DNA of 64,000 nt, from assembly GCF_905475395.1 (NCBI RefSeq), contig NC_058340.1, positions 59,436,181-59,500,180 of the forward strand. The letters are read 5' to 3'. The position numbers and the translations under genes are program-made. A model generated the notes under the pieces. It was not told where the DNA came from, did not search any database, and saw only the letters and a list, made by a program, of their open reading frames with translations. This DNA is from Chrysoperla carnea. Its lineage: Eukaryota > Arthropoda > Insecta > Neuroptera > Chrysopidae. The first letter of the stretch is position 1. Each line of letters begins with the position of its first letter. Of this stretch, positions 5,541-53,349 are shown one piece after another.

Positions 5541-5554
5541 TATAGACTGTATAC

Positions 5555-5640: not shown

Positions 5641-5725
5641 TGAGGCGCACATATTAAGAGCAATGAGGCGCACAATAACTTTCTAAACGGGGAAGTTAAA
5701 AAAATGAATAGTTGGACCCAAATTA

Positions 5726-22000: not shown

Positions 22001-25000
22001 AAATAATATCAAATTAATATCATTTAATGCAATTAAAAATAATCATTCACAAATAATAAGCCGCTTTTAATAAAAATCGTTGCCTATACAATTTTCGAAC
22101 AACGGAAAAATATTTTAGAATAAAATTATTTTTTAACTAACAATTAGTAATAACGCTTCTATGGCGCGTTTATGTATGTGGTAGTATTAGCAATATAATT
22201 TTTTAGATCATCTTGTCATGGGAATAGATGGTGAAGGTAACACGGCTTCTGGCAGACCCGATCCAGTTAGTCCTGATAATACAAGGCCTACATATCCAGC
22301 AGGTATAAACGAATTTTAACATTTTAACATCAAGCTTAAAAATTAATTATTATATCCAATTACTCTAAATGAATTCGGCATTTATATTCGTAAACATACG
22401 AACATCATTTAGAGATAATTCTCACAATTAACAAAAAAACAAAATATTTTTCTTATAATGTAGGAGGTGGAGGTGGTGTTGGTGGTGGAAGAGATCCTTA
22501 CGATGATAGAACAAGGCCACCAATAGGACCTGATCGATTTCCAGATCGATATCCGTCAAGATATCCCAATTGGTATCCAGCAGGAAATGGCGGCGATCCT
22601 TATGATAGATATCCTCCAGGAACTAAATATCCAGTAGGACCACGGTTAGTATTGTTGCTATTTTAATCAATGACTAACAATATTCTTTAATAATCATACT
22701 TTTCATATTATTTTTTAGATATCCCCCAGGTGATAGATATCCTCCAGCTCCAGATGGTGATCGATATCCCGTAGGAGGTGGTCGTTATCCACCCGGTGGG
22801 CGTTACCCTCCAACAGCTGGAGGTCCATATCCCCCATCAGGAGGTGGTGATAGATATCCACCATCAGGTGGTGGAGGAGGAAGGTATCCCCCAATTTCTC
22901 CTGGGAGGTATCCTTTATATGAAAATCGATATCCAGCACCAAATTATCCACCTTCTGGAGGAGCAGGCGGCAGATACCCACCAGGTGACAGATATCCCCC
23001 AGCTCCAGTAGATAGATATCCACCTGCGCCAGTAGATAGGTATCCTCCAGCACCAGCTGATAGATACCCTCCAGCACCAGCGGATAGATATCCTCCAGCA
23101 CCAGTTGATAGATACCCACCAGCACCAGTTGATAGATATCCAACTTCACCAGCGGATAGATACCCTAGTCGTGGCCCACCCGAATATCCCCCTAAATATC
23201 CTGTAGGCGGACGTCCACCTTATGATGACAGACTTCCACCCAATGACATTGGTCGTTATCCAGGTAATCACATTTATTTTAAAGGTTATTTATTTGTATA
23301 AACGTTTGTTTTCCTTTAGCAACTGGTAGCAGATATCCCGTTGCAGGCGGCCGACCACCATATGATTATGATCGTTACCCAGTAGATAGATATCCAGGTA
23401 TAAACATAATGTTTCTTAATTTAAGCGAAATGTTTAGACAAAAGATTCTTTAAACCATTATATGAGGATTTGCCCTTTAATATTTTTTCGATTTCAATTA
23501 ATGTAGCAAACATGAGACCAAAACTTTTCAAAAATATTTTAGGCATCGAACCGTTACCAGGGATACTGAACATTATCTGTCTTGCGGGATTCTCGAAATG
23601 AAAATATCCTCATAATTTTATTGACACTCTATATAATCTCTAACTGTGTGGATAATTATACATCAAATGCCTAATCGATTTTTTATGCCATTTTTAAAAT
23701 AATTTAAATTTTTGGTCTCAAACAGAAATCATATATGTTACTACTGACATGTAATATACTTTCCAACATACTGTAGCTACTAAATATCTGGGCGTATTTT
23801 CTAGCATGCAAAAAAAGCAAATTGTCATGAAACCGCCAAAATTGTACACATTTTATTCATATCCAAAATTGTGTGTATAAATTTTAGCTGATCGATATGC
23901 ACCAGATGATGATCGTTACAATCGAGGCCGATATCCAGGAGGTGATCGATTTGGTGGTGACAGATATCCACCATCAGGTGGAAATCGTTGGGGATATGGA
24001 CGGCCCGTTTATGATGGACCTGGTAAAACATGCATTAAAACTTAAAATAAACAATAAGTTTCCTTTTTTTAATTATAGAAGACTGTACTTGTCTAGTCTT
24101 ATTTTTGGATACATGGTTGTCATGAAATTTGTCTATTATGAAGTAGGAATTTTCTTTATATTTTGTAGTAATAGTTTATATTTTGGGAATGTAATTCATT
24201 TTATGAAAGAATAAAAATAATTAATACCTACTGTTCTGCTTCTTATTTAGTAGTATATTAGAATCAGAGTTCCGTATTCGAAGTAAAAATATTACCCGTG
24301 AAAAATAATTCATAATTGTCGCATTTTTCAAACCATTCCATGCAAGTACAATCATTAACTGGCATAAACATACATTACTAAAAATCTAGGCATCTCAAAA
24401 TACTCATTCAATTTTTAAATTCATTCAAACTTATAGAATATCCCGGTGTCCGGCCAGGATATGAAGACGGACCGGGGCCGGGTGGTCCTGGTGGTTTTGG
24501 ACCCGGTGGCTATGGGCCACAACGTCCCATTGCTGGCGGAACACGATGTGACGAAGGCGGAGATAACTTTAAACAAATTGGAGCACATCAGAGAGTTCGA
24601 AGACAATTCGTTCGTCGATTTACAACAGTCCCATCATTGATGTTATGCCAACGTGAATGTGCAGAAGCTAGAGATTTCGTGTGTCGGTCATTTAATTATC
24701 GGTAAAAAATTATACGGTGTTTTCGAGAGAACTTGAATTGAAATGACTTTAAAAACTATTCTAGCGATCCAGTCACACCTTCATACGATGGTGATCGAGA
24801 TAATTGTGAACTAAGCGACCGAGATACCAGAGATTTAGACATTAACAATCCAGCATTCTTTGATTCGGCGGGAAATTATGATTTCTATGAAAGATCAGCT
24901 GCTCGAAATGGGGTTGACGGCGATTGCTTAGATGGTAAGAAGTATTTTTATAGCTTACATACTAACTCTAATATTATTTCAAAGTAAAACAATTCCTGTT

Positions 25001-27183
25001 TATTCACATTTACACTGACTTTTACTAATTTAGTAAGCCAAGAGTGTAACGAGGATGGTATGACATTCACATTACGCACTCCGGAAGGTTTTGTCGGACG
25101 AATATACACCTATGGATTTTATGATCGTTGCTTCTTCAGAGGAAATGGTGGTACTGTAAATGTTTTAAGAATAAGTGGAGCCCAAGGATATCCCGAGTGT
25201 GGAACACAACGTGTAAGACTTAAAATACTGTTTTATGATTATTTATTAAATTAATAAAATTTTTTTATTTCTTAGTATGGGGATACAATGACTAACATAG
25301 TCGTTGTACAATTCAGTGATTACGTTCAAACTGGAAAGGACAAACGTTTTAATTTAACTTGTTTGTTCCGTGGTCCAGGTGAAGCCGTCGTAACATCAGG
25401 TTATATTGGAGCTGGGTATGAAATTTATTTTATTTTCGATTTTTAAGTTCATATAACAAGTATTAAATTTCAGATAGAAACTCGTTGCTAATTTTTAACA
25501 AAAGTACATTTATTTTAACATATTTTTGTTTACTTTCGCTTTTTAACTAAGTATTTCGTTACATTCCTTTTACCAATTCATTGCCAACATTGAATTAAAA
25601 GTAATTAGTAATAGAAACCTCTAAGTAGTATTTAAAAAAACACAGCTCATCCACTATGGATCCACTTAGTCTGTAACCAAACTAATTATTCGAAAGGCTA
25701 TTGGTTACTAATAACTAACTAATTATATAACTTTAAACAAATTCTAGCACAAATAATGTGTGATTATTAAAGAATTTATTTAAAGTTTGATTTATTAAGG
25801 ATTTGAATTAAATTGATCTGAGAGTAGTTGGGATTTGGATTCACCTATGTCTAGGTCTGGAAGCCCAATTCCGATTGAGTATCTACCTGCAGAAAATTCA
25901 TTGAGTTCGAAGGTACGATTGATGATTCTATATCAAGGGCGGCCAACTACAACCATTGCCGTTGGAGATCCTTTAACGTTCCGATTAGAAGCTCAAGATG
26001 GATACAATTATTTGACAGACATCTTCGCCACAAATGTAATAGCTAGAGATCCATATTCTGGTAGATCCGTACAGTTAATTGATAGATATGGGTAAGTTAC
26101 ATGCATAAACGGTATTCTTATTAACTTTCATTACTTAATTATTTGTTTTAATTGCAGATGTCCTGTCGATACTTATGTATTCCCAGAGTTGGATCGCTTA
26201 AGGGACGGAGATACACTGGAGGCAAGATTCAATGCATTCAAAATTCCTGAATCCAACTTTTTAGTTTTCGAAGCTACAGTAAGAACATGCCGAGATGGAT
26301 GTCAACCAGCATATTGTACAAGTAACACCGGGCGTTCAGAGCCATCATTTGGAAAGCGACGACGTCGATCGCTAAACGACACTGATTCAGATTTAGACAA
26401 TATGTTGGATGGAAATTCCACAGTTGTTGTGAATGCAACGGCCGTCAATTTTATTGCTCAGTTAAATGATACAGATGAAGATAATTTTGAGACAAATGTT
26501 GAGTCTGATCAATCAGAATTTCCAGAACATGTTAGAGAAATGATTGAAGTTTTTGATTCAAGAGAGGAATTGCAAATGGAAGCCAGAAAAGTAATAGCTT
26601 TACCAGAAACAGTTTGTCTGTCAAATGGAGAATATCATGCATTTATCAGTGCGATATTGATATTAATAATACTATTGTTGGGTCTAACTATCGCCGCAGG
26701 ATGGGTTTACAGGTATAATGAAATGCACACATTAATAACTCGTATCTAACAGGATTTAACTAATACCATTGTTTCAGACGTTACTGGTCCGTCATAAGTA
26801 AAAATTTAGCAGTTGATCGTTTATCACCATCAATAAATTCAAGTCATGCTTATCCACAATCGAACTCACAATCTCAACGTTCTAATATTTTATCCTATTT
26901 TGGAGGAGGTTCTCAAAAACCTTTCTCAGCCAGGTAGGTGCATAGATATAAAATCGAAAAAGGATTATCCTTACACAAATTAATCTTGTATATTTTTAGT
27001 GGCTTACCTCGTGTATGTGATTTTGGTCAATCTGATCAAACTGCAACTCCAGGCATTGGAGCATTTGAGGATCCAAGTGAACCAATTTATACCGACCCAT
27101 CATTATTTGAACGATCTAGAAGTTTATGCAGTATATCCGTAGCGCAAGATCGACACCGTGCAAGAAGTAATGAACGTATTTAG
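19014..27183 (+). CDS. nompA: NompA-like PAN/Apple and ZP-domain transmembrane protein (1,427 aa, 20 exons)
   Basis: NompA is the apical-matrix protein that joins mechanosensory dendrites to cuticle. Exons: 19014-19092, 19158-19243, 19474-19735, 19809-20090, 20151-20283, 20347-20489, 20709-21059, 22207-22302, 22464-22644, 22719-23263, 23320-23397, 23888-24022, 24437-24701, 24765-24934, 25034-25212, 25276-25415, 25828-26091, 26158-26712, 26778-26933, 27000-27183. All have GT/AG borders and the sum is divisible by 3. Order: signal peptide (1-27), four PAN modules (to about 445), Gly/Pro/Arg-Tyr linker (about 450-800, RYPP repeats), a fifth PAN (about 825-935), ZP domain (about 939-1183), KRRRRS furin-type site (about 1196-1201), a transmembrane helix near 1290-1312 and a cytoplasmic tail of about 115 residues. 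Five PANs plus ZP match NompA. The acceptor of exon 17 (GAGAGTAG) has a poor pyrimidine tract. Confidence 0.85.
21060..22206. other. nompA intron 7, with a poly-T run
   Basis: This is a 1,147-bp intron. A T run of about 25 lies near 21,831-21,855 and could be the reversed poly-A tail of a retroposed fragment. CAGGGTGTTTCAGACTTTTA near 21,608 resembles common transposon text. No exon was seen inside. Confidence 0.4.
22987..23163 (+). repeat. In-frame 24-bp tandem repeat (DRYPPAPV) within nompA
   Basis: Seven 24-base units begin at 22987, 23011, 23035, 23059, 23083, 23107 and 23131, then a decaying eighth. Each encodes DRYPPAPV or DRYPPAPA. The surrounding exon 10 is filled with looser RYPP/RYP motifs separated by glycines. 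The array makes a flexible, Tyr/Pro-rich linker between PAN4 and PAN5. Confidence 0.9.
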
Positions 27184-30406: not shown

Positions 30407-30919
30407 ATGGAATTTCCTTTTCCAAAAGTGAAAAATTTGTTTTTTGTGCTTTTATTTGTTATACCGTTTTCTGAAACTATTTCTAGTGATTCCGTAGTTA
30501 TACCTGTAAGTTATACAATATAATTTTAGCACTGTTTGTCTAGAAACGCAAACAACTGTACCTAATTGTGTTTCCTAAGCTAGTGAATTGTGTATCATTA
30601 TTTCGTTAATGTGAATATGTTGTATGTTTATATGTATGTGTGTTTTATATTGTAGTGTCCGACAAAAAACACAATTTCAACCGAAACCGAATATTCGGCT
30701 TATCCTCGAGTTTTTGTTTCGATTTTATTATACGTCGACGAAAAAAAAAAAAAACTTCTTTGATAAAAACGCTGATTTTGATAGTTATTTTCTCATTTTG
30801 ATGGGTTGATCGATTAAATAAATGACTACAAAAGTAGGCATATTTAACATTAAGTCTTATGGGAAAACGGTTGATGGATGATAAGTTTTCATAGAATTCA
30901 ACAAAACTAGTCGGTGGAA

Positions 30920-30953
<34 letters not shown>

Positions 30954-33900
30954 ATTTAAATTAAAGTTTAAACCTTAATAAATTATTGAAAACAACGGTA
31001 ATGGGGGACCAAATTTAAAAAATTTTTATTTCAATTTGATGGTGAATTATGTTAGAACTTAACAATATAAGACGAAAAGTAAAAATAAAATTTTTCATCA
31101 TCTGGAGCAATTTTCAAAATATCGAAAATTTTGTTTAATTGTTTAGCTTTCGATGTTTCGAAAATCAAGATATCGAAAAATTGTATTCTTATTTTTCATC
31201 AACATTCATGAAGTCATAACAAAATTAATCATCTAAGTTGAAAATAAGGTACAAATAATTTCAACCACAAGTCTCAACTTGCCTTGGCGCTCGTACTACC
31301 TTAAAATGCACGTCTAACTAAATTAAGTGCTTGCATCTTTTTGGACAATATGTCTCTCCCATTTAAGTGGTAACATATTTTTTCGGCAAAATGTTTATCA
31401 TTTGCATGTTAGCATTTTATTGAACGACCCTGTACATTAACAATAGAAATTTCGAATTGTGCCAGACTACCGAGTAGAATTGATTACCGTTGATTAAAAA
31501 TAAATGTACTATTATTAATATAATATTTTCTTTGATTTTATGTACTATTAATATAATATTTTCAATAAATATTTGCACAAGTTTTAGATTGTTGAAAGGA
31601 ATGTAAAAGTAAAAATTTTATTCGTAGGATATTCATTGGCGAGATACGAAATGTGAAGGAGAGACAAATTTAAATAATTTTGAGGGTAGTGGTCCAAGAA
31701 GATACCATCGATGTGTGAACATAAATGGTCAGATGATATTATCTTCAAAAATATGTGCTAAAGGATTAGTTTATGATAAGACGATAAAAAAATGTGTTAA
31801 TGTACCGGGTAATGGATACGCTCTGTATATTGACTACGAACCACATTGCCCAAATAATTACAATGGCCTTTTAAAACATCCAACTCAGTTTCAATATTAT
31901 TATATATGCCGAAATTCTTCAACAATAGTAGCGAAATGTGGACATTTACAGCTTTTCGATAATACAAATAAAAGATGCCAACCACTGCCATTATCTGCTT
32001 TGTGTACAATTAAGATCTATGATGCAAGTCAGGGAACATTAGAAGTTCCAGACTGCCATTCAAGTGGAAGATTTTCGTTACCAAACGAATGTGCATTTTA
32101 TTATATATGTATATCAAATCTGAATATATATTATCAATATATTCATAAATGTCCTGGAAGAACTAAGTACGATCCAGTTAAAAAATATTGTACATACAAC
32201 GCCAAATGTGAAAAGCCACCTACAACTACACCTAGTTGGGTATTTTTGGAGGATCCTTATCCCCCTTGTACATCACATGGAAGATTTCGATCACCAACTG
32301 ATTGTAGTTTATATTATACTTGCAGTGTTAAAACCAACGGAACATTTTATCAAGAAAGATTTGAATGTCCTACTGGAACAATATTTAGCAATTCACATAA
32401 ATTTTGTGTATCAGATCAAGTCGAGAACTGTACCCTACCACAGCCATTTCGTAAATGGCCATTTCTGATTACGTCCACAGTGAATTCATTAGAAAATAAA
32501 CAAACTCAAAACACAATAAAATATTCGGAAATAACACATAGTCATGAAAGAACGAGAAAAAAGAATCATTCGAACGTAACCATAGGATTATCCACTAGAA
32601 AAAATACGAGACTAACAACAGACAAGTTTGACAAGACAAATGGAATTACAACAGACAAAGTTGGAAGCACAATCATTAAATCCTGGAAAGATCGTGATCA
32701 CTCAATTTACGAATCAACAAAACATCATACGACCTCACTGGAAAAACATCATACCTCCCAAACAACCCATAATAGGAAACGTACAAGTCATCACACTGCA
32801 TCCCAATCAACCACCATACATCATTCATCAAGTAAAAAAGACAAATACAGGAACGAAATAATTCCGTTAGCTGTAACTTCAAATGATGATGCAACTTCAA
32901 GTCGCCGTATACATACTAGGAGTAAGGGTACAAGAACTCCACACAAAACAAGAATAGTAACGGATAAATATGGAAGTACAAGAGTTGTCACGAGTTCGGA
33001 AGATACAGACGACACCGGAGCAGATGCACCACACAAACCAGGTACAGGACACCGGACCCATAAACCACGTACTTATACATCTATAAGTGACAACAAACCA
33101 CATGGAAGCAGACATACAAGACTTCCACACAGCACGAGAATAATAACAGATAAATATGGAAGTTCAAAAGTTGTTACGAGAACTGAAGATTCCGATGATT
33201 CTCGTAACGATTCACCGCACAAACCAGGATCAAACCACAGAACTCATGTGCCACGAAATCATACATCTTCTGTTGATGATAAACCACATGGAAGTAGACA
33301 TACAAGAACTCCGCACAGCTCGAGAATAATAACGGATAAATATGGCAGTACAAAAGTTGTTACGGTTCCTGGAAACTCCGATGATTCTGGAAACGATTCA
33401 CCGCACAAACCAGGATCAAGCCACATAACTCATGTACCACGTAATCATACACCTATTAGTGGTAATAAACCACATGGAAGTAGACATACAAGAACTCCAC
33501 ACAGAACGAGAATAATAACGGATAAATATGGAAGTACACAAGTTGTTACGAGTCCTGAAGATTCAGATGATTCTGGTAAAGAGACACCACACAAACCAGG
33601 TTCAAGCCACAGAACTCATGTACCACATAATCATTCATCTATTAGTGGTGATAAACCACATGGAAGTAGACATACAAGAACTTCACACGGAACGAGAATA
33701 ATAACGGATAGATATGGAAGTACACAAGTTGTTACGATTCCTGGAAATTCCGATGATTCAAGTAAAGAGGCACCACACAAACCAGGTTCAAGCCACAGAA
33801 CTCATGTGCCACGAAATCATACATCTATTGGTGGTGATAAATCACATGGAAGTAAACATACAAGAACTCCACACAGAACGAGAATAATAACGGATAAATA

Positions 33901-36900
33901 TAAAAGTACAAAAGTTGTTACGAGTCCTGGAGATTCAGAAGATTCAGGTAAAGAGACACCACACAAACCAGGATCAAGCCACAGAACTCATGTGCCACGT
34001 AATCATACATCTATAAACGGCGATAAACCACATGGAAGTAGACATACAAGAACTCCACACGGAACGAGAATAATAACGGATAAATATGGAAGTACAAAAG
34101 TTGTTACGAGTCCTGAAGATACCGATGATTCCGTCAAAGAGACACCACACAAACCAGGATCAAGCCACAGAACTCATTTGCCACGGAATCATACATCTGT
34201 TGGTGGTGATAAACCACATGGAAGTAGACATACAAGAACTCCACACGGAACGAGAATAATAACGGATAAATATGGAAGTACAAAAGTTGTTACGAGTCCT
34301 GGAGATTTAGATGATTCAGGTAAAGAGACACCACACAAACCAGGATCAAGCCACAGGACTCATGTGCCACGTAATCATACATCTATAAACGGCGATAAAC
34401 CACATGGAAGTAAACGTACAAGAACTCCAAAAAGAACGAGAATAATAACGGATAAATATGGAAGTACAAAAGTTGTTACGAGTTCTGGAGATTCAGATGA
34501 TTCAGGTAAAGAGACACCACACAAACCAGGAACAAGTCACAGAACTCATTTGCCACGTAATCATACATCTATAAACGGCGATAAACCACATGGAAGTAGA
34601 CATACAAGAACTCCACACAGAACGAGAATAATAACGGATAAATATGGAAGTACAAAAGTTGTTACGAGTCTTGAAGATTCAGATGATTCTGGTAAAGAGA
34701 CACCACACAAACCAGGTTCAAGCCACAGAACTCATGTGCCACGTAATCATACATCTATTGGTGGTGATAAACTACATGGAAGTAGACATACAAGAACTCC
34801 ACACGAAACGAGAATAATAACGGATAAATATGGAAGTACAAAAGTTGTTACGAGTCCTGGAGATTCAGATGATTATAGTAACGATTCACCGCACAAACCA
34901 GGATCAAGCCACAGGACTCATGTGCCACGTAATCATACATCTATAAACGGCGATAAACCACATGGAAGTAAACGTACAAGAACTCCAAAAAGAACGAGAA
35001 TAATAACGGATAAATATGGAAGTACAAAAGTTGTTACGAGTCCTGGAGATTCATATGATTCAGGTAAAGAGACACCACACAAACCAGGATCAAGCCACAG
35101 AACTCATGTGCCACGTAATCATACATCTATAAACGGCGAAAAACCACATGGAAGTAGACATACAAGAATTCCACACGGAACAAGAATAATAACGGATAAA
35201 TATGGAAGTACAAAAGTTGTTACAAGTCCTGGAGATTCAGATGATTCTGGTAAAGAGACACCACACAAACCAGGTTCAAGCCACAGAACTCATTTGCCAC
35301 GTAATCATACCTCTATAAACGGCGATAAACCACATGGAAATAGACATACAAGAACTTCACACAGAACGAGAATAATAACGGATAAATATGGAAGTACAAA
35401 AGTTGTTACGAGTCCTGGAGATTTAGATGATTCAGGTAAAGAGACACCACACAAACCAGGATCAAGCCCCAGAACTCATGTGCCACGTAATCATACATCT
35501 ATAAACGGCGATAAACCACATGGAAGTAAACGTAAAAGAACTCCACACGGAACGAGAATAATAACGGATAAACATGGAAGTACAAAAGTTGTTACGAGTC
35601 CTGAAGATTCAGATGATTCTGGTAAAGAGACACCACATAAACCAGGTTCAAGCCACAGAACTCACGTACCACGTAATCATTCATCAATAAGCGGCAACAA
35701 ACCACATGGAAGTAAACGTACAAGAATTCCACACAGAACGAGAATAATAACGGATAAATATGGAAGTACAAAAGTTGTTACGATTCCTGGAAATTCCGGT
35801 GATTCGAGTAACGATTCACCGACCAAACCAGGATCAAGCCACAGGACTCATGTGCCACGTAATCATACATCTATAAACGGCGATAAACCGCATGGAAGTA
35901 AACGTACAAGACCTCCACACGGAACGAGAATCATAACGGATAAATATGGAAGTACAAAAGTTGTTACAAGTCCTGGAGATTCAGATGATTCTGGTAAAGA
36001 GACACCACACAAACCAGGTTCAAGCCACAGAACTCATGTGCCACGAAATCATACATCTATTGGTGGTGATAAACCACATGGAAGTAGACATACAAGACCT
36101 CCACATGGAACGAGAATAATAACGGATAAATATGGAAGTACAAAAGTTGTTACGAGTCCTGGAGATTCAGATGATTCTGGTAAAGAGACACCACACAAAC
36201 CAGGATCAAGCCACAGAACTCATTTGCCACGGAATTATACATCTATTAGTGGTGATAAACCACATGGAAGTAAACATACAAGAACTCCACACGGAACGAG
36301 AATAATAACGGATAGATATGGAAGTACAAAAGTTGTTACGAGTCCTGAAGATTCAGATGATTCTGGTAAAGAGACACCACATAAACCAAGATCAAGCCAC
36401 AGAACTCACGTACCACGTAATCATTCATCAATAAGCGGCAACAAACCACATGGAACTAAACGTACAAGTGTTTCACACAAAACGAGAATAATAACGGATA
36501 AATATGGAAGTACAAAAGTTGTTACGATTCCTGAAGATTCAGATTATTCTGGTAAAGAGACATCACACAATCCAGGTTCAACCCACAGAGCTCATGTGCC
36601 ACGTAATCATACATCTATTGGTGGTGATAAATCACATGGAAGTAAACGTACCAGAATTCCTCACAGCTCGAGAATAATAACCGATAAATATGGAAGTACA
36701 AAAGTTGTTACGAGTCCTGGAGATTTAGATGATTCTGATAAAGAGACACCACACAAACCAGGATCAAGCCACAGAACTCGTGTGCCACGAAATCATACGT
36801 CTATTGGTGGTGATAAACCACATGGAAGTAGACATACAAGAACTCCACACGGAACGAGAATAATAACGGATAAATATGGAAGTACAAAAGTTGTTACGAG

Positions 36901-39900
36901 TCTTGGAGATTCAGATGATTCTGGTAAAGAGACACCACACAAACCAGGAGCAGGACACAAAACTCATGTGCCACGAAATAATACGTCTATTGGTGGTGAT
37001 AAACCACATGGAAGTAAACGTACAAGAATTCCACACGGAACGAGAATAATAACGGATAAATATGGAAGTACAAAAGTTGTTACGAGTCCTGGAGATTCAG
37101 ATGATTCTGATAAAGAGACACCACACAAACCAGGATCAAGCCACAGAACTCATTTGCCAAGGAATCATACATCTATTGGTGGTGTTAAACCACATGGAAG
37201 TAGACATACAAGAACTCCACACCGAACGAGAATAATTACGGATAAATATGGAAGTACTAAAGTTGTTACGAGTCCTGGAGATTCAGATGATTCTGATAAA
37301 GAGACACCACACAAACCAGGATCAAGCCACAGAACTCATTTGCCACGGAATCATACATCTATAGGTGGTGTTAAACCACATGGAAGTAGACATACAAGAA
37401 CTCCACACGGAACAAGAATAATAACGGATAAATATGGAAGTACAAAAGTTGTTACGAGTCCTGGAGATTCAGATGATTCTGATAAAGAGACACCACACAA
37501 ACCAGGATCAAGCCACAGAACTCGTGTGCCACGAAATCATACATCTATCAGTGGTGATAAACCACATGGAAGTAGACATACAAGATTTCCACACGGTACG
37601 AGAATAATAACGGATAAATATGGAAGTACAAAAGTTGTTACGATTCCTGGAGATTCAGGTGATTCTGATAAAGAGACACCACACAAACCAGGATCAAGCC
37701 ACAGAACTCATTTGCCACGGAATCATACATCTATTGGTGGTGTTAAACCACATGGAAGTAGACATACAAGAACTCCACACGGAACGAGAATAATAACGGA
37801 TAAATATGGAAGTACAAAAGTTGTTACGAGTCCTGGAGATTCAGATGATTCTGATAAAGAGACACCACACAAACCAGGATCAAGCCACAGAACTCATTTG
37901 CCACGGAATCATACATCTATTGGTGGTGTTAAACCACATGGAAGTAGACATACAAGAACTCCACACCGAACGAAAATAATAACGGATAAATATGGAAGTA
38001 CAAAAGTTGTTACGAGTCCTGGAGATTCAGATGATTCTGATAAAGAGACACCACACAAACCAGGATCAAGCCACAGAACTCATTTGCCACGGAATCATAC
38101 ATCTATTGGTGGTGTTAAACCACATGGAAGTAGACATACAAGAACTCCACACGGAACGAGAATAATAACGGATAAATATGGAAGTACAAAAGTTGTTACG
38201 AGTCTTGGAGATTCAGATGATTCTGGTAAAGAGACACCACACAAACCAGGAGCAGGACACAAAACTCATGTGCCACGAAATAATACGTCTATTGGTGGTG
38301 ATAAACCACATGGAAGTAAACGTACAAGAATTCCACACGGAACGAGAATAATAACGTATAAATATGGAAGTACAAAAGTTGTTACGAGTCCTGGAGATTC
38401 AGATGATTCTGATAAAGAGACACCACACAAACCAGGATCAAGCCACAGAACTCATTTGCCACGGAATCATACATCTATTGGTGGTGTTAAACCACATGGA
38501 AGTAGACATACAAGAACTCCACACCGAACGAAAATAATAACGGATAAATATGGAAGTACAAAAGTTGTTACGAGTCCTGGAGATTCAGATGATTCTGATA
38601 AAGAGACACCACACAAACCAGGATCAAGCCACAGAACTCATTTGCCACGGAATCATACATCTATTGGTGGTGTTAAACCACATGGAAGTAGACATACAAG
38701 AACTCCACACCGAACGAGAATAATAACGGATAAATATGGAAGTACTGAAGTTGTTACGAGTCCTGGAGATTCAGATGATTCTGATAAAGAGACACCACAC
38801 AAACCAGGATCAAGCCACAGAACTCATTTGCCACGGAATCATACATCTATAGGTGGTGTTAAACCACATGGAAGTAGACATACAAGAACTCCACACGGAA
38901 CAAGAATAATAACGGATAAATATGGAAGTACAAAAGTTGTTACGAGTCCTGGAGATTCAGATGATTCTGATAAAGAGACACCACACAAACCAGGATCAAG
39001 CCACAGAACTCGTGTGCCACGAAATCATACATCTATCAGTGGTGATAAACCACATGGAAGTAGACATACAAGATTTCCACACGGTACGAGAATAATAACG
39101 GATAAATATGGAAGTACAAAAGTTGTTACGATTCCTGGAGATTCAGGTGATTCTGATAAAGAGACACCACACAAACCAGGATCAAGCCACAGAACTCATT
39201 TGCCACGGAATCATACATCTATTGGTGGTGTTAAACCACATGGAAGTAGACATACAAGAACTCCACACGGAACGAGAATAATAACGTATAAATATGGAAG
39301 TACAAAAGTTGTTACGAGTCCTGGAGATTCAGATGATTCTGATAAAGAGACACCACACAAACCAGGATCAAGCCACAGAACTCATTTGCCACGGAATCAT
39401 ACATCTATTGGTGGTGTTAAACCACATGGAAGTAGACATACAAGAACTCCACACCGAACGAAAATAATAACGGATAAATATGGAAGTACAAAAGTTGTTA
39501 CGAGTCCTGGAGATTCAGATGATTCTGATAAAGAGACACCACACAAACCAGGATCAAGCCACAGAACTCATTTGCCACGGAATCATACATCTATTGGTGG
39601 TGTTAAACCACATGGAAGTAGACATACAAGAACTCCACACGGAACGAGAATAATAACGGATAAATATGGAAGTACAAAAGTTGTTACGAGTCCTGGAGAT
39701 TCAGATGATTCTGATAAAGAGACACCACACAAACCAGGATCAAGCCACAGAACTCGTGTGCCACGAAATCATACAACTATCAGTGGTGTTAAACCACATG
39801 GAAGTAGACATACAAGAACTCCACAAGGAACGAGAATAATAACGGATAAATATGGAAGTACAAAAGTTGTTACGAGTCTTGGAGATTCAGATGATTCTGG

Positions 39901-42900
39901 TAAAGAGACACCACACAAACCAGGAACAGGACACAAAACTCATGTGCAACGTCATCATACCTCTATAAACGGCGATAAACCACATGGAAGTAAACGTACA
40001 AGAATTCCACACGGAACGAGAATAATAACGGATAAATATGGAAGTACAAAAGTTGTTACGAGTCCTGGAGATTTAGATGATTCTGATAAAGAGACACCAC
40101 ACAAACCAGGATCAAGCCACAGAACTCATTTGCCACGGAATCATACATCTATTGGTGGTGTTAAACCACATGGAAGTAGACATACAAGAACTCCACACGG
40201 AACGAGAATAATAACGGATAAATATGGAAGTACAAAAGTTGTTACGAGTCCTGGAGATTCAGATGATTCTGATAAAGAGACACCACACAAACCAGGATCA
40301 AGCCACAGAACTCGTGTGCCACGAAATCATACATCTATCAGTGGTGATAAACCACATGGAAGTAGACATACAAGAACTCCACACGGAACGAGAATAATAA
40401 CGGATAAATATGGAAGTACAAAAGTTGTTACGATTCCTGGAGATTCAGATGATTATGATAAAGAGACACCACACAAACCAGGATCAAGCCACAGAACTCG
40501 TGTGCCACGAAATCATACATCTATCAGTGGTGATAAACCACATGGAAGTAGACATACAAGATTTCCACACGGTTCGAGAATAATAACGGATAAATATGGA
40601 AGTACAAAAGTTGTTACGAGTCCTGGAGATTCAGATGATTCTGATAAAGAGACACCACACAAACCAGGATCAAGCCACAGAACTCATTTGCCACGGAATC
40701 ATACATCTATTGGTGGTGTTAAACCACATGGAAGTAGACATACAAGAACTCCACACGGAACGAGAATAATAACGGATAAATATGGAAGTACAAAAGTTGT
40801 TACGAGTCCTGGAGATTCAGATGATTATGATAAAGAGACACCACACAAACCAGGATCAAGCCACAGAACTCATTTGCCACGGAATCATACATCTATTGGT
40901 GGTGTTAAACCACATGGAAGTAGACATACAAGAACTCCACACCGAACGAGAATAATAACGGATAAATATGGAAGTACAAAAGTTGTTACGAGTCCTGGAG
41001 ATTCAGATGATTCTGATAAAGAGACACCACACAAACCAGGATCAAGCCACAGAACTCGTGTGCCACGAAATCATACATCTATTGGTGGTGTTAAACCACA
41101 TGGAAGTAGACATACAAGAACTCCACACGGAACGAGAATAATAACGGATAAATATGGAAGTACAAAAGTTGTTACGAGTCTTGGAGATTCAGATGATTCT
41201 GGTAAAGAGACACCACACAAACCAGGAACAGGACATAAAACTCATGTGCAACGTAATCATACCTCTATAAACGGCGATAAACCACATGGAAGTAAACGTA
41301 CAAGAATTCCACGCGGAACGAGAATAATAACGGATAAATATGGAAGTACAAAAGTTGTTACGATTCCTGGAGATTCAGATGATTCTGATAAAGAGACACC
41401 ACACAAACCAGGTTTAAGCCACAAAACTCGTGTGCCACGAAATCATACATCTATCAGTGGTGATAAACCACATGGAAGTAGACATACAAGATTTCCACAC
41501 GGTTCGAGAATAATAACGGATAAATATGGAAGTACAAAAGTTGTTACGAGTCCTGGAGATTCAGATGATTCTGATAAAGAGACACCACACAAACCAGGAT
41601 CAAGCCACAGAACTCATTTGCCACGGAATCATACATCTATTGGTGGTGTTAAACCACATGGAAGTAGACATACAAGAACTCCACACCGAACGAGAATAAT
41701 AACGGATAAATATGGAAGTACAAAAGTTGTTACGAGTCCTGGAGATTCAGATGATTCTGATAAAGAGACACCACACAAACCAGGATCAAGCCACAGAACT
41801 CATTTGCCACGGAATCATACATCTATTGGTGGTGTTAAACCACATGGAAGTAGACATACAAGAACTCCACACGGAACGAGAATAATAACGGATAAATATG
41901 GAAGTACAAAAGTTGTTACGAGTCCTGGAGATTCAGATGATTCTGATAAAGAGACACCACACAAACCAGGATCAAGCCACAGAACTCGTGTGCCACGAAA
42001 TCATACATCTATCAGTGGTGATAAACCACATGGAAGTAGACATACAAGAACTCCACACGGAACGAGAATAATAACGGATAAATATGGAAGTACAAAAGTT
42101 GTTACGATTCCTGGAGATTCAGATGATTATGATAAAGAGACACCACACAAACCAGGATCAAGCCACAGAACTCGTGTGCCACGAAATCATACATCTATCA
42201 GTGGTGATAAACCACATGGAAGTAGACATACAAGATTTCCACACGGTTCGAGAATAATAACGGATAAATATGGAAGTACAAAAGTTGTTACGAGTCCTGG
42301 AGATTCAGATGATTCTGATAAAGAGACACCACACAAACCAGGATCAAGCCACAGAACTCATTTGCCACGGAATCATACATCTATTGGTGGTGTTAAACCA
42401 CATGGAAGTAGACATACAAGAACTCCACACCGAACGAGAATAATAACGGATAAATATGGAAGTACAAAAGTTGTTACGAGTCCTGGAGATTCAGATGATT
42501 ATGATAAAGAGACACCACACAAACCAGGATCAAGCCACAGAACTCATTTGCCACGGAATCATACATCTATTGGTGGTGTTAAACCACATGGAAGTAGACA
42601 TACAAGAACTCCACACGGAACGAGAATAATAACGGATAAATATGGAAGTACAAAAGTTGTTACGAGTCCTGGAGATTCAGATGATTCTGATAAAGAGACA
42701 CCACACAAACCAGGATCAAGCCACAGAACTCGTGTGCCACGAAATCATACATCTATCAGTGGTGATAAACCACATGGAAGTAGACATACAAGATTTCCAC
42801 ACGGTACGAGAATAATAACGGATAAATATGGAAGTACAAAAGTTGTTACGAGTCCTGGAGATTCAGATGATTCTGATAAAGAGACACCACACAAACCAGG

Positions 42901-45900
42901 ATCAAGCCACAGAACTCATTTGCCACGGAATCATACATCTATTGGTGGTGTTAAACCACATGGAAGTAGACATACAAGAATTCCACACCGAACGAGAATA
43001 ATAACGGATAAATATGGAAGTACAAAAGTTGTTACGAGTCCTGAAGATTCAGATGATTATGATAAAGAGACACCACACAAACCAGGATCAAGCCACAGAA
43101 CTCATTTGCCACGGAATCATACATCTATTGGTGGTGTTAAACCACATGGAAGTAGACATACAAGAACTCCACACGGAACGAGAATAATAACGGATAAATA
43201 TGGAAGTACAAAAGTTGTTACGAGTCCTGGAGATTCAGATGATTCTGATAAAGAGACACCACACAAACCAGGATCAAGCCACAGAACTCGTGTGCCACGA
43301 AATCATACATCTATCAGTGGTGATAAACCACATGGAAGTAGACATACAAGATTTCCACACGGTACGAGAATAATAACGGATAAATATGGAAGTACAAAAG
43401 TTGTTACGAGTCCTGGAGATTCAGATGATTCTGATAAAGAGACACCACACAAACCAGGATCAAGCCACAGAACTCATTTGCCACGGAATCATACATCTAT
43501 TGGTGGTGTTAAACCACATGGAAGTAGACATACAAGAACTCCACACCGAACGAGAATAATAACGGATAAATATGGAAGTACAAAAGTTGTTACGATTCCT
43601 GGAGATTCAGATGATTCTGATAAAGAGACACCACACAAACCAGGATCAAGCCACAGAACTCGTGTGCCACGAAATCATACATCTATCAGTGGTGATAAAC
43701 CACATGGAAGTAGACATACAAGATTTCCACACGGTACGAGAATAATAACGGATAAATATGGAAGTACAAAAGTTGTTACGATTCCTGGAGATTCAGATGA
43801 TTCTGGTAACGATTCACCGCACAAACCAGGATCAGGACACAGAACCCGTGAACCACGTAATTATACATCAATCAGTGGCGATAAACCACAAGGAAGTAAA
43901 CATGCAAGAACCCCACACAGCACGATAATAATTACGGATAAATATGGACGTACAAAAGTTGTCACGAGTCTTGGAGATACAAACGAAACTGATAAGGATA
44001 CATCACATAAACCAGGATCTGGACACTCAACGTATGTTCCAAGGAATCATACATCTATAAGCCATAATAAACCACATGTTAGTAAACAAACAAGGACTCC
44101 ATATGCCACAAATCTTATTACGGATAAATATGGAATTACAACGCATGCAGTTGGTATTCATCAAACATCCATTGTTCATGGTACAAGAATAACTACAACT
44201 GGAGGCGTAGATAACGTAAAATCACAATCTTTATCGCAAGTACCTACAGAAAAACATAGCGATCATACTGTAATTAAAGAATCATATGGGACGTCGAAAA
44301 TTCCTGAAATTTCAAATCAGAAGCGTATTGTTAAAGATACTCAACCTCCACGATTAGGTCAAAGCACTCCTGATCATTCGACACATAGTGTTAAAACACG
44401 CCGTACACCTAGTGCTAAAAATCATTCTGAACATGGAGAAGGACACGCACGATCAACGCATACTCGAGGAGGACATACACGATCAACGCATCAAGAAAAA
44501 ACTCATAAAGATGTGACACGTCACACCAGAAATTCAACAGGAACAGTATCCACTAAAATTCATCAAACTCGTAAAAGCCGTGTAACAAAAGTTGTCCAAA
44601 TAACCCAAGTGACCGATAAAGATCATCAGATTGTAACACATCCAAGAAATAGAACGCATCAAGGACACAAAAATCATACAACTCGTGCTGGTAATCACAC
44701 ACTTGCGCCCCATACACATCGCACTCATGATTATAGTAACGCCACGGTAAAAGACGTTCAATTAGACAATTCCACCAAAATTGGCTTTACAATTAAAATT
44801 AAAAGTTACACATTTTTAAATTATGATAAAAATGTTACGGACATTGATGGAAAACATGGAGGTTTTACCGAATCACCAAACTGTACTAGATCTGGTACTT
44901 TTCTATATTCAAAGGACTGTAAGAAATATTTTCTATGTAAAGTGGGAAAGACAACACTATTTGATTTTGAAATTTATGAATGCAAAGAAGGATTGATTTA
45001 CAGTCAAAGGTATAAAATTTGCGTTTCGTTGAATTTTGAAACTTGCACGTTTCAAGTATTTGTTCCACACTTTAAACCACCCACTACTCCTCTACCCAGT
45101 TCAAAACAAAAAGTGAAATGTAAAGATCCTGGCATATTTGCATTTAATGATTCTTGTAAATCTTATTATGTTTGTGAAAAAACGAATAACAAGAGTCTTG
45201 AAGCAAACGTTCAACAATGTCCACCAAACACTAATTTTGATATTCAATACAAGAGATGTCTTCCTGAAAAAGTATCAAAATGTAACAGATTTGATAATGA
45301 AATTATTCAACCCACAAAGACGTACACCAATAATAAGGAGTTATTAAAAACAACTAGCACATCTATTAAAAATACTGAAATTTCAGTTACCGAAGGTAAG
45401 TTTAACATTAAAAAACAAGTGAAAACAAACAATTGACTGAGTTAATTGTTGAAATACCATGCATAAATTAGTGTTTACATTTAAACTTTTGTTCTATCTC
45501 TAACGGTTTACAAGATGAGTCCTACGGACCCATAGGTCAAGACCCAATTGACCTATGTTGCTCATTTAACGAACTCGACCTCACTTCTTACGCCCTGAGT
45601 ACGCTGTAACAATTTCAGCTTGATATCTTTTTTCATTTTTGGGTTATCGCGCCCACAGACGGACGTACGGACGGACGGACAACCGGAAATAGACTAATTA
45701 GGTGATTTTATGAACACCTATATAAAATTTTGTTCGTAGGATCAATATTTTTAAGCGTTACAAACTTGGGACTAAACTTAGTATACCTTGGTATATTACA
45801 TATATGCATGGTATAAAAGGAGTAATACAATGGAATTATTTAAAAAATCACAGTAACAGAGAAAAGTGTTGCATCTTGGCCACAGTTGTTTATTAGGTTG

Positions 45901-46818
45901 TAAAAACTTCGTACCTAAAAATCGAATACTCAGAGTGGGGCTTAACCCCCTTTTTAATAATTTATTTTATTTTTGTTTTTAGTCTCACCTAAAGTACCGA
46001 AGAACAACACAGATGAATGTCCTGAAAGTGGTAAGTGTTATCCAGGGCTATTAAGTTTATGTAGGAATTAAATTTGGCTACCTTCGTAAAATTTTAATAC
46101 TTGAAATTGAAAATATCGTCGAATATTAATTTAGTTACCACTACAATAAACTTTGTTAAATTATATTTAAGTGCTTAAAAAAATAATGATTTAAATACAT
46201 TTAATTTCAGACAATGACTGTCCCCATGTTGGAGCATTTCGAGTAGAAAATTCATGTCATGAATACTTTGAATGCACATATGATAGGAAATGTGATCGAC
46301 TAGTTAAAACTGATACATTAGTTTGTCCAAAATGTTTACGTTTTAATCCAGTTGTTGGTTTATGTGATTATCCACACAACGTTCCAGAGTGTGCACCAAA
46401 AATGCCCGATAAATATAACTGTACCGGTCCAGGAACATTTAAAGTAGCAAAAAATTGTACTCAATATGCTGTTTGTGAAAAAACGAGCAGCGGCACATAC
46501 AAAGGCATTCGTAAACATTGTCCGCAATCACAAAACTTTAATCCTAGTACTTTACAGTGTGAGGAGAATTTTGAATGCTTTGTTAAAAAACCAGAATGTA
46601 CAAGACCTGGATTTTTTGTTAATGAACATACATGTGAATTATATTATCAGTGTGTAGAACTGGATGATGATGGAAATTTCGATGTCGTTGAACACGAATG
46701 CCCTCCAAATTTGTTGTTTGATGTTGAAAAACAATATTGTGATTTCCCAGATAAAGTAAAAGGCTGTCAAATTGAACATCACACTTTAAAACCACCTTTA
46801 TTACCCAAGCCAAAATAA
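30407..46818 (+). CDS. Giant secreted chitin-binding (CBM14) protein with sixty 62-aa histidine-rich repeats (about 4,840 aa)
   Basis: Exons 30407-30505, 31628-45395, 45983-46030 and 46211-46818 have GT/AG borders, and the sum (14,523 bases) keeps one frame. Exon 1 encodes a signal peptide (MEFPFPKVKN then LFFVLLFVIPF). Four CBM14/peritrophin-A domains follow (about residues 40-300), with the usual six-Cys spacing and YYxC cores such as FYYICIS and LYYTCS. Residues about 302-474 are a Ser/Thr/His-rich linker. Residues about 475-4194 are sixty 62-aa units with RIITDKYGSTKVVT, HKPGSSHRTH, PRNHTS and PHGSRHTR. Five more CBM14 domains close the protein (about 4450-4840). The family binds chitin in peritrophic matrix, cuticle or tracheal lumen. 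There is no membrane anchor, so it should be secreted. I do not recognise a named orthologue. Poly-A candidate at 47,061. The repeats may be under- or over-counted by assembly. Confidence 0.9.
30506..31627. other. Intron 1 of the giant chitin-binding gene
   Basis: Phase-0 intron with a GTAAGT donor and a TTTATTCGTAG acceptor. It hosts the family-C repeat (about 30,830-31,315). Before that, 30,660-30,705 has ACCGAAACCGAATATTCGGC, a palindromic phrase resembling high-copy insect transposon text. Confidence 0.7.
30830..31315 (+). repeat. Dispersed repeat (family C), copy 2
   Basis: It shares AAGTAGGCATATTTAACATT, ATGGGAAAACGGT, ACTAGTCGGTGG, an A run, and TTGCCTTGGCGCTCGTACTA with 9,245-9,610, in the same order and orientation. 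Here the A tract is about 28 bases and the central spacer is longer. It lies wholly within intron 1. Confidence 0.65.
32951..44140 (+). repeat. 186-bp coding minisatellite array, 60 periods
   Basis: The first motif (AGAATAGTAACGGATAAATA) begins at 32,951 and the last (AATCTTATTACGGATAAATA) at 44,111. The difference is 11,160 bases, exactly 60 x 186, so there is no net length change across the array. The units all read in the same frame and no stop interrupts them. The early units (33-36.5 kb) are diverse, the later ones (37-43.7 kb) nearly identical, and both edges are decayed (e.g. NLITDKYGITTHA at the end). Larger blocks are duplicated at 5-, 8- and 9-unit offsets. Confidence 0.97.
45396..45982. 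other. Intron 2 of the giant chitin-binding gene, carrying a repeat insertion
   Basis: The donor GGTAAGTTT follows ACCGAAG, and the acceptor TTTGTTTTTAG precedes TCTCACC. If this intron were retained, translation would end at 45,436 and lose the last three CBM14 domains. A family-E repeat occupies most of it. Confidence 0.8.
45414..45820 (+). repeat. Dispersed repeat (family E), copy 1, with palindromic ends
   Basis: It opens with AACAAGTGAAAACAAACAAT and GAAATACCATGCATA, and closes with TATATGCATGGTATAAAA, so the two termini are short inverted repeats (ATACCATGCATA / TATGCATGGTAT). The interior holds AACGGTTTACAAGATG, GGACGGACGGACAACCGGAA and TAGGTGATTTTATGAACACC. A second copy is at 60,397-60,958 and an inverted partial copy at 59,338-59,575. 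It is a MITE-like non-autonomous element with no protein. Confidence 0.75.
46031..46210. other. Intron 3 of the giant chitin-binding gene
   Basis: A 180-bp phase-1 intron, donor GTAAGTG, acceptor TTAATTTCAG. No additional features. Confidence 0.85.
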
Positions 46819-48390: not shown

Positions 48391-50784
48391 ATGGATGCAA
48401 ATAAAATTAAAATGTAAGTAATTTTGATTAAATTGTTATGTAAAACATCATCATACAATAAAACATTTTTAGATTAATTTGTGGTGATGTGAAAGGTAAC
48501 TTCCAAACATTGTTTTCAAGAGTTGAAACACTTAATAAAAAAGCTGGACCTTTTGAAATGCTCTTATGTGTTGGAGATTTTTTTGGAGATAATTTTAATG
48601 AATTTAAACAATATCAAGCGGGATTGAAGAAAGTACCTCTATCTACTTACATTTTAGGACCTGTTAGTCAGGAACAGGAACGATATTTTGAAGATATAAA
48701 TGGCTGTGAAATTGCGCCTAATATTTCTTATTTAGGGAAGCGTGGTTTATTTTCACCATCAACTGGTTTAAAAATAGCATATTTAAGTGGTATACAAAGT
48801 GATTCTGATGAATATGAAAAATTTACATTTCGTAAACAGGATGCAATGGCTTTAAAAGCAGCTTGTGTTCGAAGTCAGTGCTCATTTCGAGGTGTTGATA
48901 TATTATTAACATCGCAATGGCCAAAATTTATAACTAATGGCGATGACAATGTAAAAAATATTATTAATATTTAAAAAAAAGCTTTATTTTGACTTTTTTT
49001 AATCACAATTTAATTAATTTTAGGCTAAAGTAGAGTATAATGGATCAGATATTATATCCTGGTTAGCAGTTCATTTAAAACCGCGATATTTAATATCAGG
49101 TTTCGAAGACCACTATTTCGAAAGAAAACCATATAGGTAAGATTAATCATTGTTTAGTTTTAATTATTTAATCACAACATGTAAATTAATCAAAATTTTA
49201 GAAATAAAAATAAATCAGGAGATTCAATGGAGATAGCAACACGCTTTATAGCACTAGCACCCGTTAAAAAATCATCTAAAGAAAAATGGCTTTACGCATT
49301 AAGTCTAACTCCATTAGAACGAATGAGAATGACAGAATTATGTCAACGAACAACGGATGAAACAGATTCACCTTTCCCTGATGAATTGTTACGCGAAGAT
49401 ATTACAAAAGAAGTAAAATTTGATCAGTCCGAGAATAAGCAATATTTTTATGATATGAATGCATCCATGGATGATACGAAACGAAAAAGAAAAGGGGCCA
49501 ATAATCCATTTAAAGAGAAACGTCCAAAACCTGAATTCGATCAATGTAATTATTTTCGTATATCTAATAAATTTTTTAATCCAGTTTCGGAAGAGTCGCG
49601 AAAATTAAGCAAAATATCTAAAACTTTTATAATCTTTTTTTATTTTATGTTGACGAATTCTATAGAAATCGTGGCTCTAATTAAATTCGTAATTTTATTT
49701 AAAATAATAAAAACTTGTAATTTTAGCAAAATGTTGGTTTTGTCTTGGCAGTCCGAATGTGGAAAAACATCTTGTAATTAGTGTTGGAAATGAAATTTAC
49801 TTAACTCTTGCTAAGGGTGGATTAGTATCTGAACACGTATTAATATCCCCTATTACACATTTTCAAGCAACGGTTGGATTATCTGAAGAATTTCTAAACG
49901 AAATTGAACAATTTAAAAAAAGTTTGGTAAAATATTTTGATAGTAAGAATGAAGTGCCCGTATTTTTTGAAAGAAACTATAAAACATCCCATTTACAAAT
50001 ACAAGTTGTACCAATTCCAAAGCAAGCAACAAGAGAATTGAAAGAAATTTTTATAGATGAAGCTAATGGTCATGGTATACAATTAGAAGAACTCCCAGAT
50101 ATATCACAATTGCAAACAGCCATACCGAAAGGTGTTCCTTATTTTATGGTCGAATTGCCGGATAAAACTGTTTTATACTCAAAAATTCGCAATAATTTTC
50201 CGTTACAATTTGGAAGGTAAATAATTTAAAATCCAGTTTTAAACCTTATATAGAAATGCATTAAGTAAAAAGTTTTGTAAAGCAGGAAATGTTTTGATGT
50301 CCAGAAATGTGTTGTTTTAAATACCACTTCGACAATTTCTTCGTAATTTTTGATCTGAAATATGATTTGAATTGGTTAATGATTTTACAAAGTAAATTGT
50401 CAAGGTGATATTGTACAGAGTGTATTTACACATCAAAATATTTAAGCTCAAAGTACATTGTACATTGATAGAACAAAATGTCTTTAGACAAAATACTTCT
50501 TTGCTTTTGAAACGCATTTTGATCAGTTCTTATTTTATTACGCTTTGTTAGACCTCATCAGACACTACGTTACATCAGTGTGCATAAGGCATAAGAGACT
50601 AATAAAATTAAATTTTTAATATTAACGTTCAATTTTCAGGGAAGTATTAACAAGCGGCCCAATTTTAGACATGCCAGATCGAATTGAGTGGCAAGATTGT
50701 AAACTAAATGAAACTGAAGAAATTGCACTCGTTCAAAGATTTCGAAAAAGTTTCGAACGCTACGATTTTACGTTGCAAAGTTAA
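48391..50784 (+). CDS. CWF19L1: CWF19-like protein 1 (530 aa, 6 exons)
   Basis: Members of the CWF19/Drn1 family associate with spliceosome disassembly and lariat debranching. Exons: 48391-48413, 48473-48950, 49024-49136, 49202-49545, 49727-50216, 50640-50784; the sum is 1,593 bases, with GT/AG borders throughout. The N-terminal half is the metallophosphatase-like fold of the family (ICGDVKGN, LLCVGDFFG, YILGPVSQEQ, YLSGI, DILLTSQWP). A basic linker follows (KRKRKGANNPFKEKRPK). Next comes the CwfJ C-terminal HIT-like domain, with CWFCLGSPNVEKHLV, LAKGGL, HVLISPITHF, FERNY and HLQIQVVPIP, then the second CwfJ block ending at FRKSFERYDF. Human CWF19L1 is about 538 aa, so the length fits. The donor of exon 4 (CAATGTAATT) was chosen because it alone restores the CWFC motif in frame. 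Poly-A candidate at 50,862. Confidence 0.95.
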
Positions 50785-52617: not shown

Positions 52618-52620
52618 AAA

Positions 52621-53349
52621 ATGTTCTTAACTCGTTCAGAATACGATCGTGGTGTAAATACCTTCTCCCCAGAGGGTCGTTTATTTCAAGTAGAATATGC
52701 TATTGAGGCAATTAAACTTGGGTCTACCGCAATTGGAATTTGTACATCGGAGGGTGTTGTATTAGCAGTAGAAAAACGAGTAACATCAACTTTAATGGAA
52801 CCAACAACCATTGAGAAAATCGTTGAGGTAGATAAACATATTGGTTGTGCTGTATCTGGACTAATGGCTGATTCACGTACAATGCTCGATCGCGCCCGCG
52901 TAGAATGTCAAAACCATTGGTTTATTTACGATGAACGTATGACTGTTGAATCGTGCGCCCAAGCAGTATCTAATCTAGCTATTCAATTTGGTGATTCCGA
53001 CGATGATGGATCGGCCATGAGTCGACCATTTGGTGTAGCAATTTTATTTGCAGGTATTGATGAAAAAGGTCCACAATTATTCCATATGGATCCTTCCGGT
53101 ACTTTTGTACAATTTGATGCAAAAGCTATTGGATCTGGTTCAGAAGGGGCACAGCAAAGTCTCCAAGAAATGTATCATAAATCAATGACATTAACAGAAG
53201 CTACAACTGCCGCATTAACTATTTTAAAACAAGTTATGGAAGAGAAATTGAATTCATCCAATGTTGAAGTGATGACGATGACTCCAGACAAGTTATTCCA
53301 TATGTTTACTAAGGATCAGGTTGAAGAGGTGATTAAAGATATTGCTTAA
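52621..53349 (+). CDS. Prosalpha5: Proteasome subunit alpha type-5 (242 aa)
   Basis: This is one of the seven alpha subunits forming the outer rings of the 20S proteasome, in nucleus and cytosol. The whole coding region is one uninterrupted frame. It starts [20 protein letters not shown] and continues [20 protein letters not shown], the alpha-type N-terminal signature. Later blocks include [76 protein letters not shown] and a C-terminal EEVIKDIA. About 241 residues is the usual length. Alpha subunits are not proteolytic, so no catalytic Thr is expected. Poly-A candidate at 53,415. The gene stands alone between repeats. Confidence 0.98.

Follow-up and report, generated by a model that had tools for sequence, protein, structure and literature searches.

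Analysis of a 64,000-nt window on chromosome 4 of the lacewing Chrysoperla carnea reveals a gene on the + strand (from the ATG at 30407 to the last base of the stop codon at 46818) that, if expressed as modelled, encodes a 534-kDa chitin-binding-type protein (computed mass, glycans excluded) whose spacer length can be read directly from the DNA. Nine CBM14 domains are arranged four plus five on either side of one array of 60 histidine-rich units. We tentatively read the product, with the chances standing a little short of even, as a secreted matrix protein whose two ends are anchored in chitin and which carries between them a disordered, cationic, probably N-glycosylated spacer whose histidines could be cross-linked by quinones, in cuticle or another apical chitinous layer.

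The coding sequence of 14,523 nt is divided over four + strand exons and translates into exactly 4,840 residues with no internal stop. Exon 1 (30407..30505, 33 codons) carries the start codon and a hydrophobic, signal-peptide-like N-terminus in an open frame that reaches a GTAAGT donor in phase 0, and exon 2 (31628..45395) holds four CBM14 domains, an N linker, the 60-unit array, a C linker, and two further CBM14 domains. Exon 3 (45983..46030) spans 48 nt with phase 1 at both ends, such that its skipping would keep the frame and yield 4,824 aa, and exon 4 (46211..46818) supplies the last three CBM14 domains and ends in the stop codon. GTAAGT is found at all three donors and AG at all three acceptor ends, giving GT-AG junctions throughout. 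The exon 2 frame of 4,602 codons is the sole stop-to-stop open reading frame of at least 300 aa in the window, which contains no N bases. By eye and by hydropathy, the N-terminus is signal-like, the most hydrophobic 19-residue stretch beginning at residue 14 (mean 1.63), and hydropathy indicates no membrane segment, the highest 19-residue mean beyond this N-terminus being 1.03. These observations agree with the original prediction, made from the sequence before this analysis, which had described one frame of about 4,840 codons across four exons, a signal peptide, and no membrane segment.

That the long frame is real DNA which is not translated as one protein, the locus being unexpressed or mis-modelled, appears highly improbable. 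Were translation to continue beyond the exon 2 donor, it would terminate at 45436 and leave only 4 + 2 CBM14 domains, which would suit such an explanation, but the array is free of stops over 3,720 codons, the three donors all read GTAAGT, and CBM14 domains resume in frame in exon 4. The GC content at codon positions 1/2/3 is also alike in the array (0.479/0.552/0.167), the N-terminal domains (0.385/0.429/0.198), and exon 4 (0.485/0.371/0.183), above all at the third position. AATAAA was no more frequent than in shuffled sequence, and a sigma-70 promoter scan is inapplicable to an insect gene. The assembly was built from 40-fold PacBio reads and has received a RefSeq annotation (PMC10116181); despite the read depth, the copy number of the array could still be wrong.

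Both ends of the predicted protein consist of chitin-binding-type modules. Scored singly, all nine segments match PF01607 above the gathering cut-off (24.5-40.6 bits vs 22.1). Ahead of the array on the + strand lie domain 1 (31628..31828, 24.5 bits), domain 2 (31820..32023, 30.3 bits), domain 3 (32036..32224, 26.7 bits), and domain 4 (32246..32446, 36.1 bits); behind it, on the same strand, lie domain 5 (44861..45064, 32.0 bits), domain 6 (45101..45304, 30.2 bits), domain 7 (46213..46401, 27.2 bits), domain 8 (46402..46587, 24.6 bits), and domain 9 (46588..46785, 40.6 bits). The count of nine and the 4 + 5 split had been proposed beforehand and stand, whereas the six cysteines then ascribed to every domain are present in seven of the nine. 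Domains 3-9 have six, with the spacing C X11 C X5 C X13-16 C X12 C X5-8 C, and the divergent domains 1 and 2 have four and five, respectively; together, the domain cysteine sets hold 51 of the 54 cysteines of the protein. The silkworm peritrophin formula CX11-15CX5CX9-14CX11-12CX6-7C (PMC7663561) is matched at every interval by domains 4, 5, and 6 only, the others being one or two residues off or cysteine-poor, and a second peritrophin-A formula from the same source, with a first interval of 13-18, is matched by none of the nine.

The two most cysteine-poor domains, 1 and 2, were modelled together, with a mean predicted local distance difference test (pLDDT) score of 60. A Foldseek comparison of this model with the Protein Data Bank (PDB) matched solved CBM14 structures, mostly with weak E-values (best 50 of 125 rows, E<=10); within these best 50 rows, E<0.001 was reached only twice, both times by one Aplysia protein, and the next matches were chitotriosidase, Der p 23, Blo t 12, Avr4, and tachycitin (E 0.03-2.3). 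The model thus supports, and does not prove, a CBM14 fold for the divergent pair. The top match is a molluscan protein whose structure was determined with tannic acid; the polyphenol binding that this might suggest was given no weight, because the match may reflect only tandem CBM14-like domains and the model is poor. From their family membership, the nine CBM14 domains would be expected to bind chitin. Bridging of chitin by the two ends, as proposed in the original prediction, is a fair inference from a secreted-looking protein with chitin-binding-type modules on both sides of one repeat block.

The array itself (32942..44101, + strand) is built from 60 units of 186 bp, or 62 aa. Sixty-one anchor motifs define 60 intervals, each of exactly 62 aa with no change in length, and this gives 60 full units, as previously described, followed by a decayed 61st; Tandem Repeats Finder likewise reports 186 bp x 60.3 copies with 92% matches. 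The N linker (32447..32941, +), in which residues 311-471 are 8.7% histidine, weakly resembles the repeat unit (blastp E 2.6e-4, obtained without composition correction and hence inflated), and the C linker (44102..44860, +; His 10.3%) opens with the decayed unit. A tandem-array artefact or non-coding satellite was considered and ruled out, since one of the six frames is open through all 60 units, against 112-389 stops in each of the other five, and this open frame is continuous with CBM14 coding on both flanks.

Comparison of the units with one another reveals an uneven history. Their mean DNA identity is 0.91, with 49 distinct sequences among the 60; pairwise identity is 0.95 in units 21-58 vs 0.88 in units 1-20, and units 59-60 average 0.84 to the consensus. 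Two pairs of blocks are 99.7% alike (units 24-28 with 32-36, and 39-43 with 48-52). This pattern looks like tandem exchange that has left a young centre and old edges. Between units, the proportions of differing synonymous and non-synonymous sites are pS 0.127 and pN 0.077, giving pN/pS 0.60 (0.55 in units 1-22). A placement test on the unit consensus counted more distinct synonymous changes than expected (54 vs 42.4, P 0.016) and fewer stop-making ones (1 vs 5.0 expected, P 0.034, with no unit itself carrying a stop), and non-synonymous changes were slightly low without being significant (108 vs 115.6 expected, P 0.09). Purifying selection on the array thus appears to be present and modest, these statistics being indications only because tandem exchange makes the units non-independent. 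The consensus tyrosine is retained in 59 of the 60 units and the consensus histidines at 381 of 420 sites (0.907).

In composition, the array combines T 13.9%, S 13.0%, H 10.3%, G 10.2%, and P 9.3% with K+R 17.2% and D+E 9.9%, and it lacks Cys, Met, and Trp entirely. S+T amounts to 26.9%, S+T+P to 36%, and charged residues plus histidine to 37%; the corresponding values for the whole protein are S+T 25.1%, P 8.6%, and His 9.2%. Each unit has about six regularly spaced histidines, and 66 N-glycosylation sequons are distributed over 58 of the 60 units. The array is predicted to be disordered: a model from an alignment of 20 three-unit windows reached a mean pLDDT of 35, with low-confidence hairpins around RIITDKYGSTKVVT, the alignment consisting of repeats of one gene only and therefore being weak evidence for or against structure. 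Fully extended, the array would measure about 1.3 micrometres (computed), and as a coil it would have a radius of gyration of about 26 nm by a general scaling law. The computed charge, without glycans, is +304 at pH 7 and +572 at pH 5.5. Together with the predicted disorder, this charge is consistent with a soft hydrogel, free of covalent cross-links, in a short-lived apical matrix such as the tracheal lumen, where the polycation would swell and expand the space and its charge would rise at low pH. We regard this as improbable, the mechanism being drawn from composition alone.

Among the scored candidates, the repeat unit was found nowhere else in the genome. The assembly searched comprises 559.49 Mb in 337 contigs, and match counts are lower bounds; with the 62-aa unit as protein query, all 60 scored candidates match and all lie in this array, although it is possible that a distant copy was missed. 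Of 135 candidates scored in a CBM14 search, 101 matched at E<=0.001, this gene accounting for five of the matches, and the largest other open frame among the CBM14 matches has 1,725 aa vs 4,602 here. With the C-terminal query, 25 candidates were scored and four matched at E<=0.01, three being the gene itself and one a weak CBM14 at 33% identity; with the N-terminal query, 16 were scored and five matched, two in the gene and three CBM14 at 37-39%. Recent gene duplication was accordingly rejected, no close paralogue being present among the 25 and 16 scored candidates. Elsewhere, no relatives were found among seven pattern-matching stretches in viral contigs or 60 in prokaryote contigs, no repeat match in phage records, and a single match at E 0.17 in a PDB sequence search; no named orthologue came to light, but none of these collections contains insect genomes, and all four are uninformative on orthologues. 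A literature search judged by title and the start of the abstract, with subscription journals largely outside it, returned nothing on this protein, and the available portions of reports on a stinkbug CBM14 mucin (PMC9095716) and silkworm cuticle proteins (PMC9101387) do not describe this layout.

Other CBM14 loci of the lacewing show a range of designs. The next largest CBM14 frame (L017, 2245-7419, 1,725 aa) has eight scored CBM14 matches with linkers rich in Ser, Gln, and Asn between them, a 788-aa frame (L024, 3713-6076) has one match amid GPSGPSAGYP-type repeats, and a 1,134-aa frame (L019, 1772-5173) joins a match to a TTTEAPTT-type mucin array. Three loci on C5 (L021, L022, and L028) have frames with 24 cysteines each in a similar cysteine-rich layout and are possibly a lacewing CBM14 subfamily; a long cysteine-poor stretch precedes the cysteine-rich part in L021 and lies near it in L028. 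At L025, an unbroken 1,307-aa frame (3474-7394, - strand), named copia-like retrotransposon by eye from its sequence, lies between two CBM14 matches.

To place the array among its relatives, Cys-free runs of at least 60 aa were compared in ten frames from 10 of 12 CBM14 loci (all but L022 and L025), nine of which gave runs. The K+R content of these nine was 1.5-15.5% and their His content 0.1-4.9%, and the array (K+R 17.2%, His 10.3%) lies above all of them in both. One frame, at L028, comes near it in K+R (15.5%); with its two cysteines, this frame itself holds no CBM14 domain. Potential tryptic sites occur at 14.0 per 100 residues in the array, vs 1.0-1.8 in the frames at L017, L018, L019, and L024 (1.4 at L019, the threonine-rich one), and this density speaks against a trypsin-rich gut lumen as the site of the protein.

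Histidine-rich cuticular proteins provide the analogy on which the tannable part of the preferred reading is based. In cuticle, histidine probably accepts quinones made by laccase. The class spans 6-45% His, and BmorCPR152 (45% His) was cross-linked into films by laccase 2 with N-acetyldopamine (NADA) or N-beta-alanyldopamine (NBAD) (PMC8062583). TcCP30, a low-complexity protein of 171 residues with its signal peptide and 21% His, forms NBAD-dependent multimers with laccase 2, with TcCPR18 (10% His) as a proposed partner (PMC4440208). The array (10.3%) and the whole lacewing protein (9.2%) fall inside the range of the class, and laccase-2 cross-linking may be a further shared property; by analogy with BmorCPR152 and TcCP30, the array could undergo quinone cross-linking. 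Under such a mechanism, the several chitin-binding modules at each end would bridge separate fibres or loop on one, and the disordered, hydrated, cationic spacer would set the distance between chitin fibres, keeping them apart and hydrated. The histidines and lysines of the array would then take up oxidised catechols through laccase-2 chemistry, and a soft deposit would be fixed in place as part of cuticle or of some other chitinous layer on the apical side, with the array acting as a tannable strap.

Several observations weigh against this chitin-anchored, quinone-hardened spacer. Its secretion, chitin binding, disorder, glycosylation, cuticular site, and cross-linking are features that we infer. 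Pfam scans of the exon 2 and exon 4 frames gave only CBM_14 above cut-off and no Rebers and Riddiford (Chitin_bind_4) domain, and the histidine content lies below those of BmorCPR152 (45%) and TcCP30 (21%). Histidine sites (0.907) are kept no better than those of Lys (0.957), Pro (0.947), or Thr (0.928), such that no selection is visible for histidine in particular, and the predicted hairpin is conserved no more than the remaining unit (Fisher p 0.62). The tryptic-site control is mixed, with 6.3-10.8 per 100 at L020, L021, L023, and L027 and 15.0 at L028, above the array itself. Moreover, CBM14 mucins have been reported also from gut and salivary gland (PMC2515642).

A different secretory role is suggested by lacewing biology. 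The Malpighian tubules of C. carnea larvae discharge a thick, dark brown exudate of protein that serves as an adhesive, and in chrysopids the tubule secretion also acts in defence against ants; the composition of such secretions is not known, and the review that describes them calls for proteomics (PMC9697091). A giant cationic, histidine-rich chain could tan and stick in a larval adhesive or cocoon secretion of this kind, its chitin-binding ends gripping cuticle. That the species makes such an exudate (PMC9697091) and that the protein is cationic and His-rich would accord with this role, yet an adhesive does not need chitin binding and nothing ties the protein to the Malpighian tubules, so that we consider it quite improbable. 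If expressed as modelled, the gene provides a concrete candidate among the proteins of lacewing matrix or secretions.

Returning to the tannable spacer, a bolder form of it is conceivable, with the chances well below even: a single chain would unite chitin anchors at both ends with a 3,720-residue quinone-hardenable polycation, the array, gaining and losing units by unequal exchange, would set the length of this strap, and mesh size, written in repeat number, may vary between individuals. If the gene is expressed as modelled, it would allow a test, within one gene, of how spacer length relates to cross-link density and material properties, and if the reading is true, having chitin binding on the same chain as a cross-linkable, His-rich array would be useful for the design of chitin composites.

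The remainder of the window contains several further features. Upstream on the + strand (19474-26746), a gene combines a PAN domain (PF00024) with RYPP-type repeats and has a hydrophobic segment close to its end; its product resembles apical matrix proteins of the PAN-ZP type, the zona pellucida (ZP) part being recognised by eye with no Pfam match in two fragments. Downstream are a CwfJ/CWF19-like gene (48462-50217, +; PF04677) and an intronless 243-aa proteasome alpha subunit frame (52618-53346, +; PF00227 and PF10584), and a reverse-transcriptase fragment (PF00078), LINE-like (long interspersed nuclear element) by eye, is found at 6000-6698 on the - strand.

In insect intestinal mucins, chitin-binding domains (CBDs) flank a Thr-rich mucin block on both sides. 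Complex peritrophins are defined by at least three CBDs and at least one mucin domain (PMC7663561). The lacewing protein, with nine CBM14 domains, has the former in excess, and its 60 repeats pair S+T of 26.9% and P of 9.3% with K+R of 17.2% and H of 10.3%. Several peritrophin-A domains, a long repeat block, and a predicted secreted type are shared with complex peritrophins and intestinal mucins; unlike them, the lacewing protein has a K/R/H-rich array, an exact 62-aa unit, and a length of 4,840 aa. In the Drosophila mucin screen, proteins were selected by S+T >25%, >300 aa, P >0.1%, and >3 ten-residue repeats (PMC2515642). Applied by hand and not through the published program, these numeric thresholds are passed, narrowly for S+T (25.1%) and amply for length (4,840 aa), P (8.6%), and repeats (60 units). 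CBM14 occurs in 9 of 23 characterised Drosophila mucins and mucin-related proteins (PMC2515642), and CBM14, repeats, and S+T over 25% are common to these and the lacewing protein; the Drosophila proteins were selected for repeats rich in proline, threonine, and serine, whereas in the lacewing array 26.9% S+T stands beside 37% charged residues plus histidine and 10% Gly.

These parallels raise the question of whether the protein belongs to the peritrophic matrix, as a complex peritrophin or a mucin of the chitin-binding type whose ends bind gut chitin while an O- and N-glycosylated array fills and lubricates the mesh. The layout fits, provided that the array is accepted as a mucin domain, and so does passage of the numeric screen with 60 repeats. 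The large share of charged residues and histidine beside S+T argues against it, as does the tryptic-site density of 14 per 100 vs 1.4 at L019, though other frames come closer, and we judge this placement rather unlikely.

With the cuticular proteins analogous to peritrophins, the protein shares CBM14, a putative signal peptide, and cuticle as a possible site; these have one (CPAP1) or three (CPAP3) CBM14 domains (PMC3504105), and the lacewing protein differs from both in its nine domains and giant array. Judged from its sequence features, the layout is like that of complex peritrophins and chitin-binding mucins, from which the Lys/Arg/His-rich array departs. The earlier statement that no named protein has this exact layout may hold for the exact arrangement, but the general plan of CBM14 domains with a mucin block is known from complex peritrophins; it is the size, the exact 62-aa period, and the Lys/Arg/His-rich array that are unusual. 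In squid beak, chitin-binding proteins and His-rich repeat proteins act together in a tanned material as separate proteins. In the lacewing, by contrast, chitin-binding domains and His-rich repeats lie on one chain.

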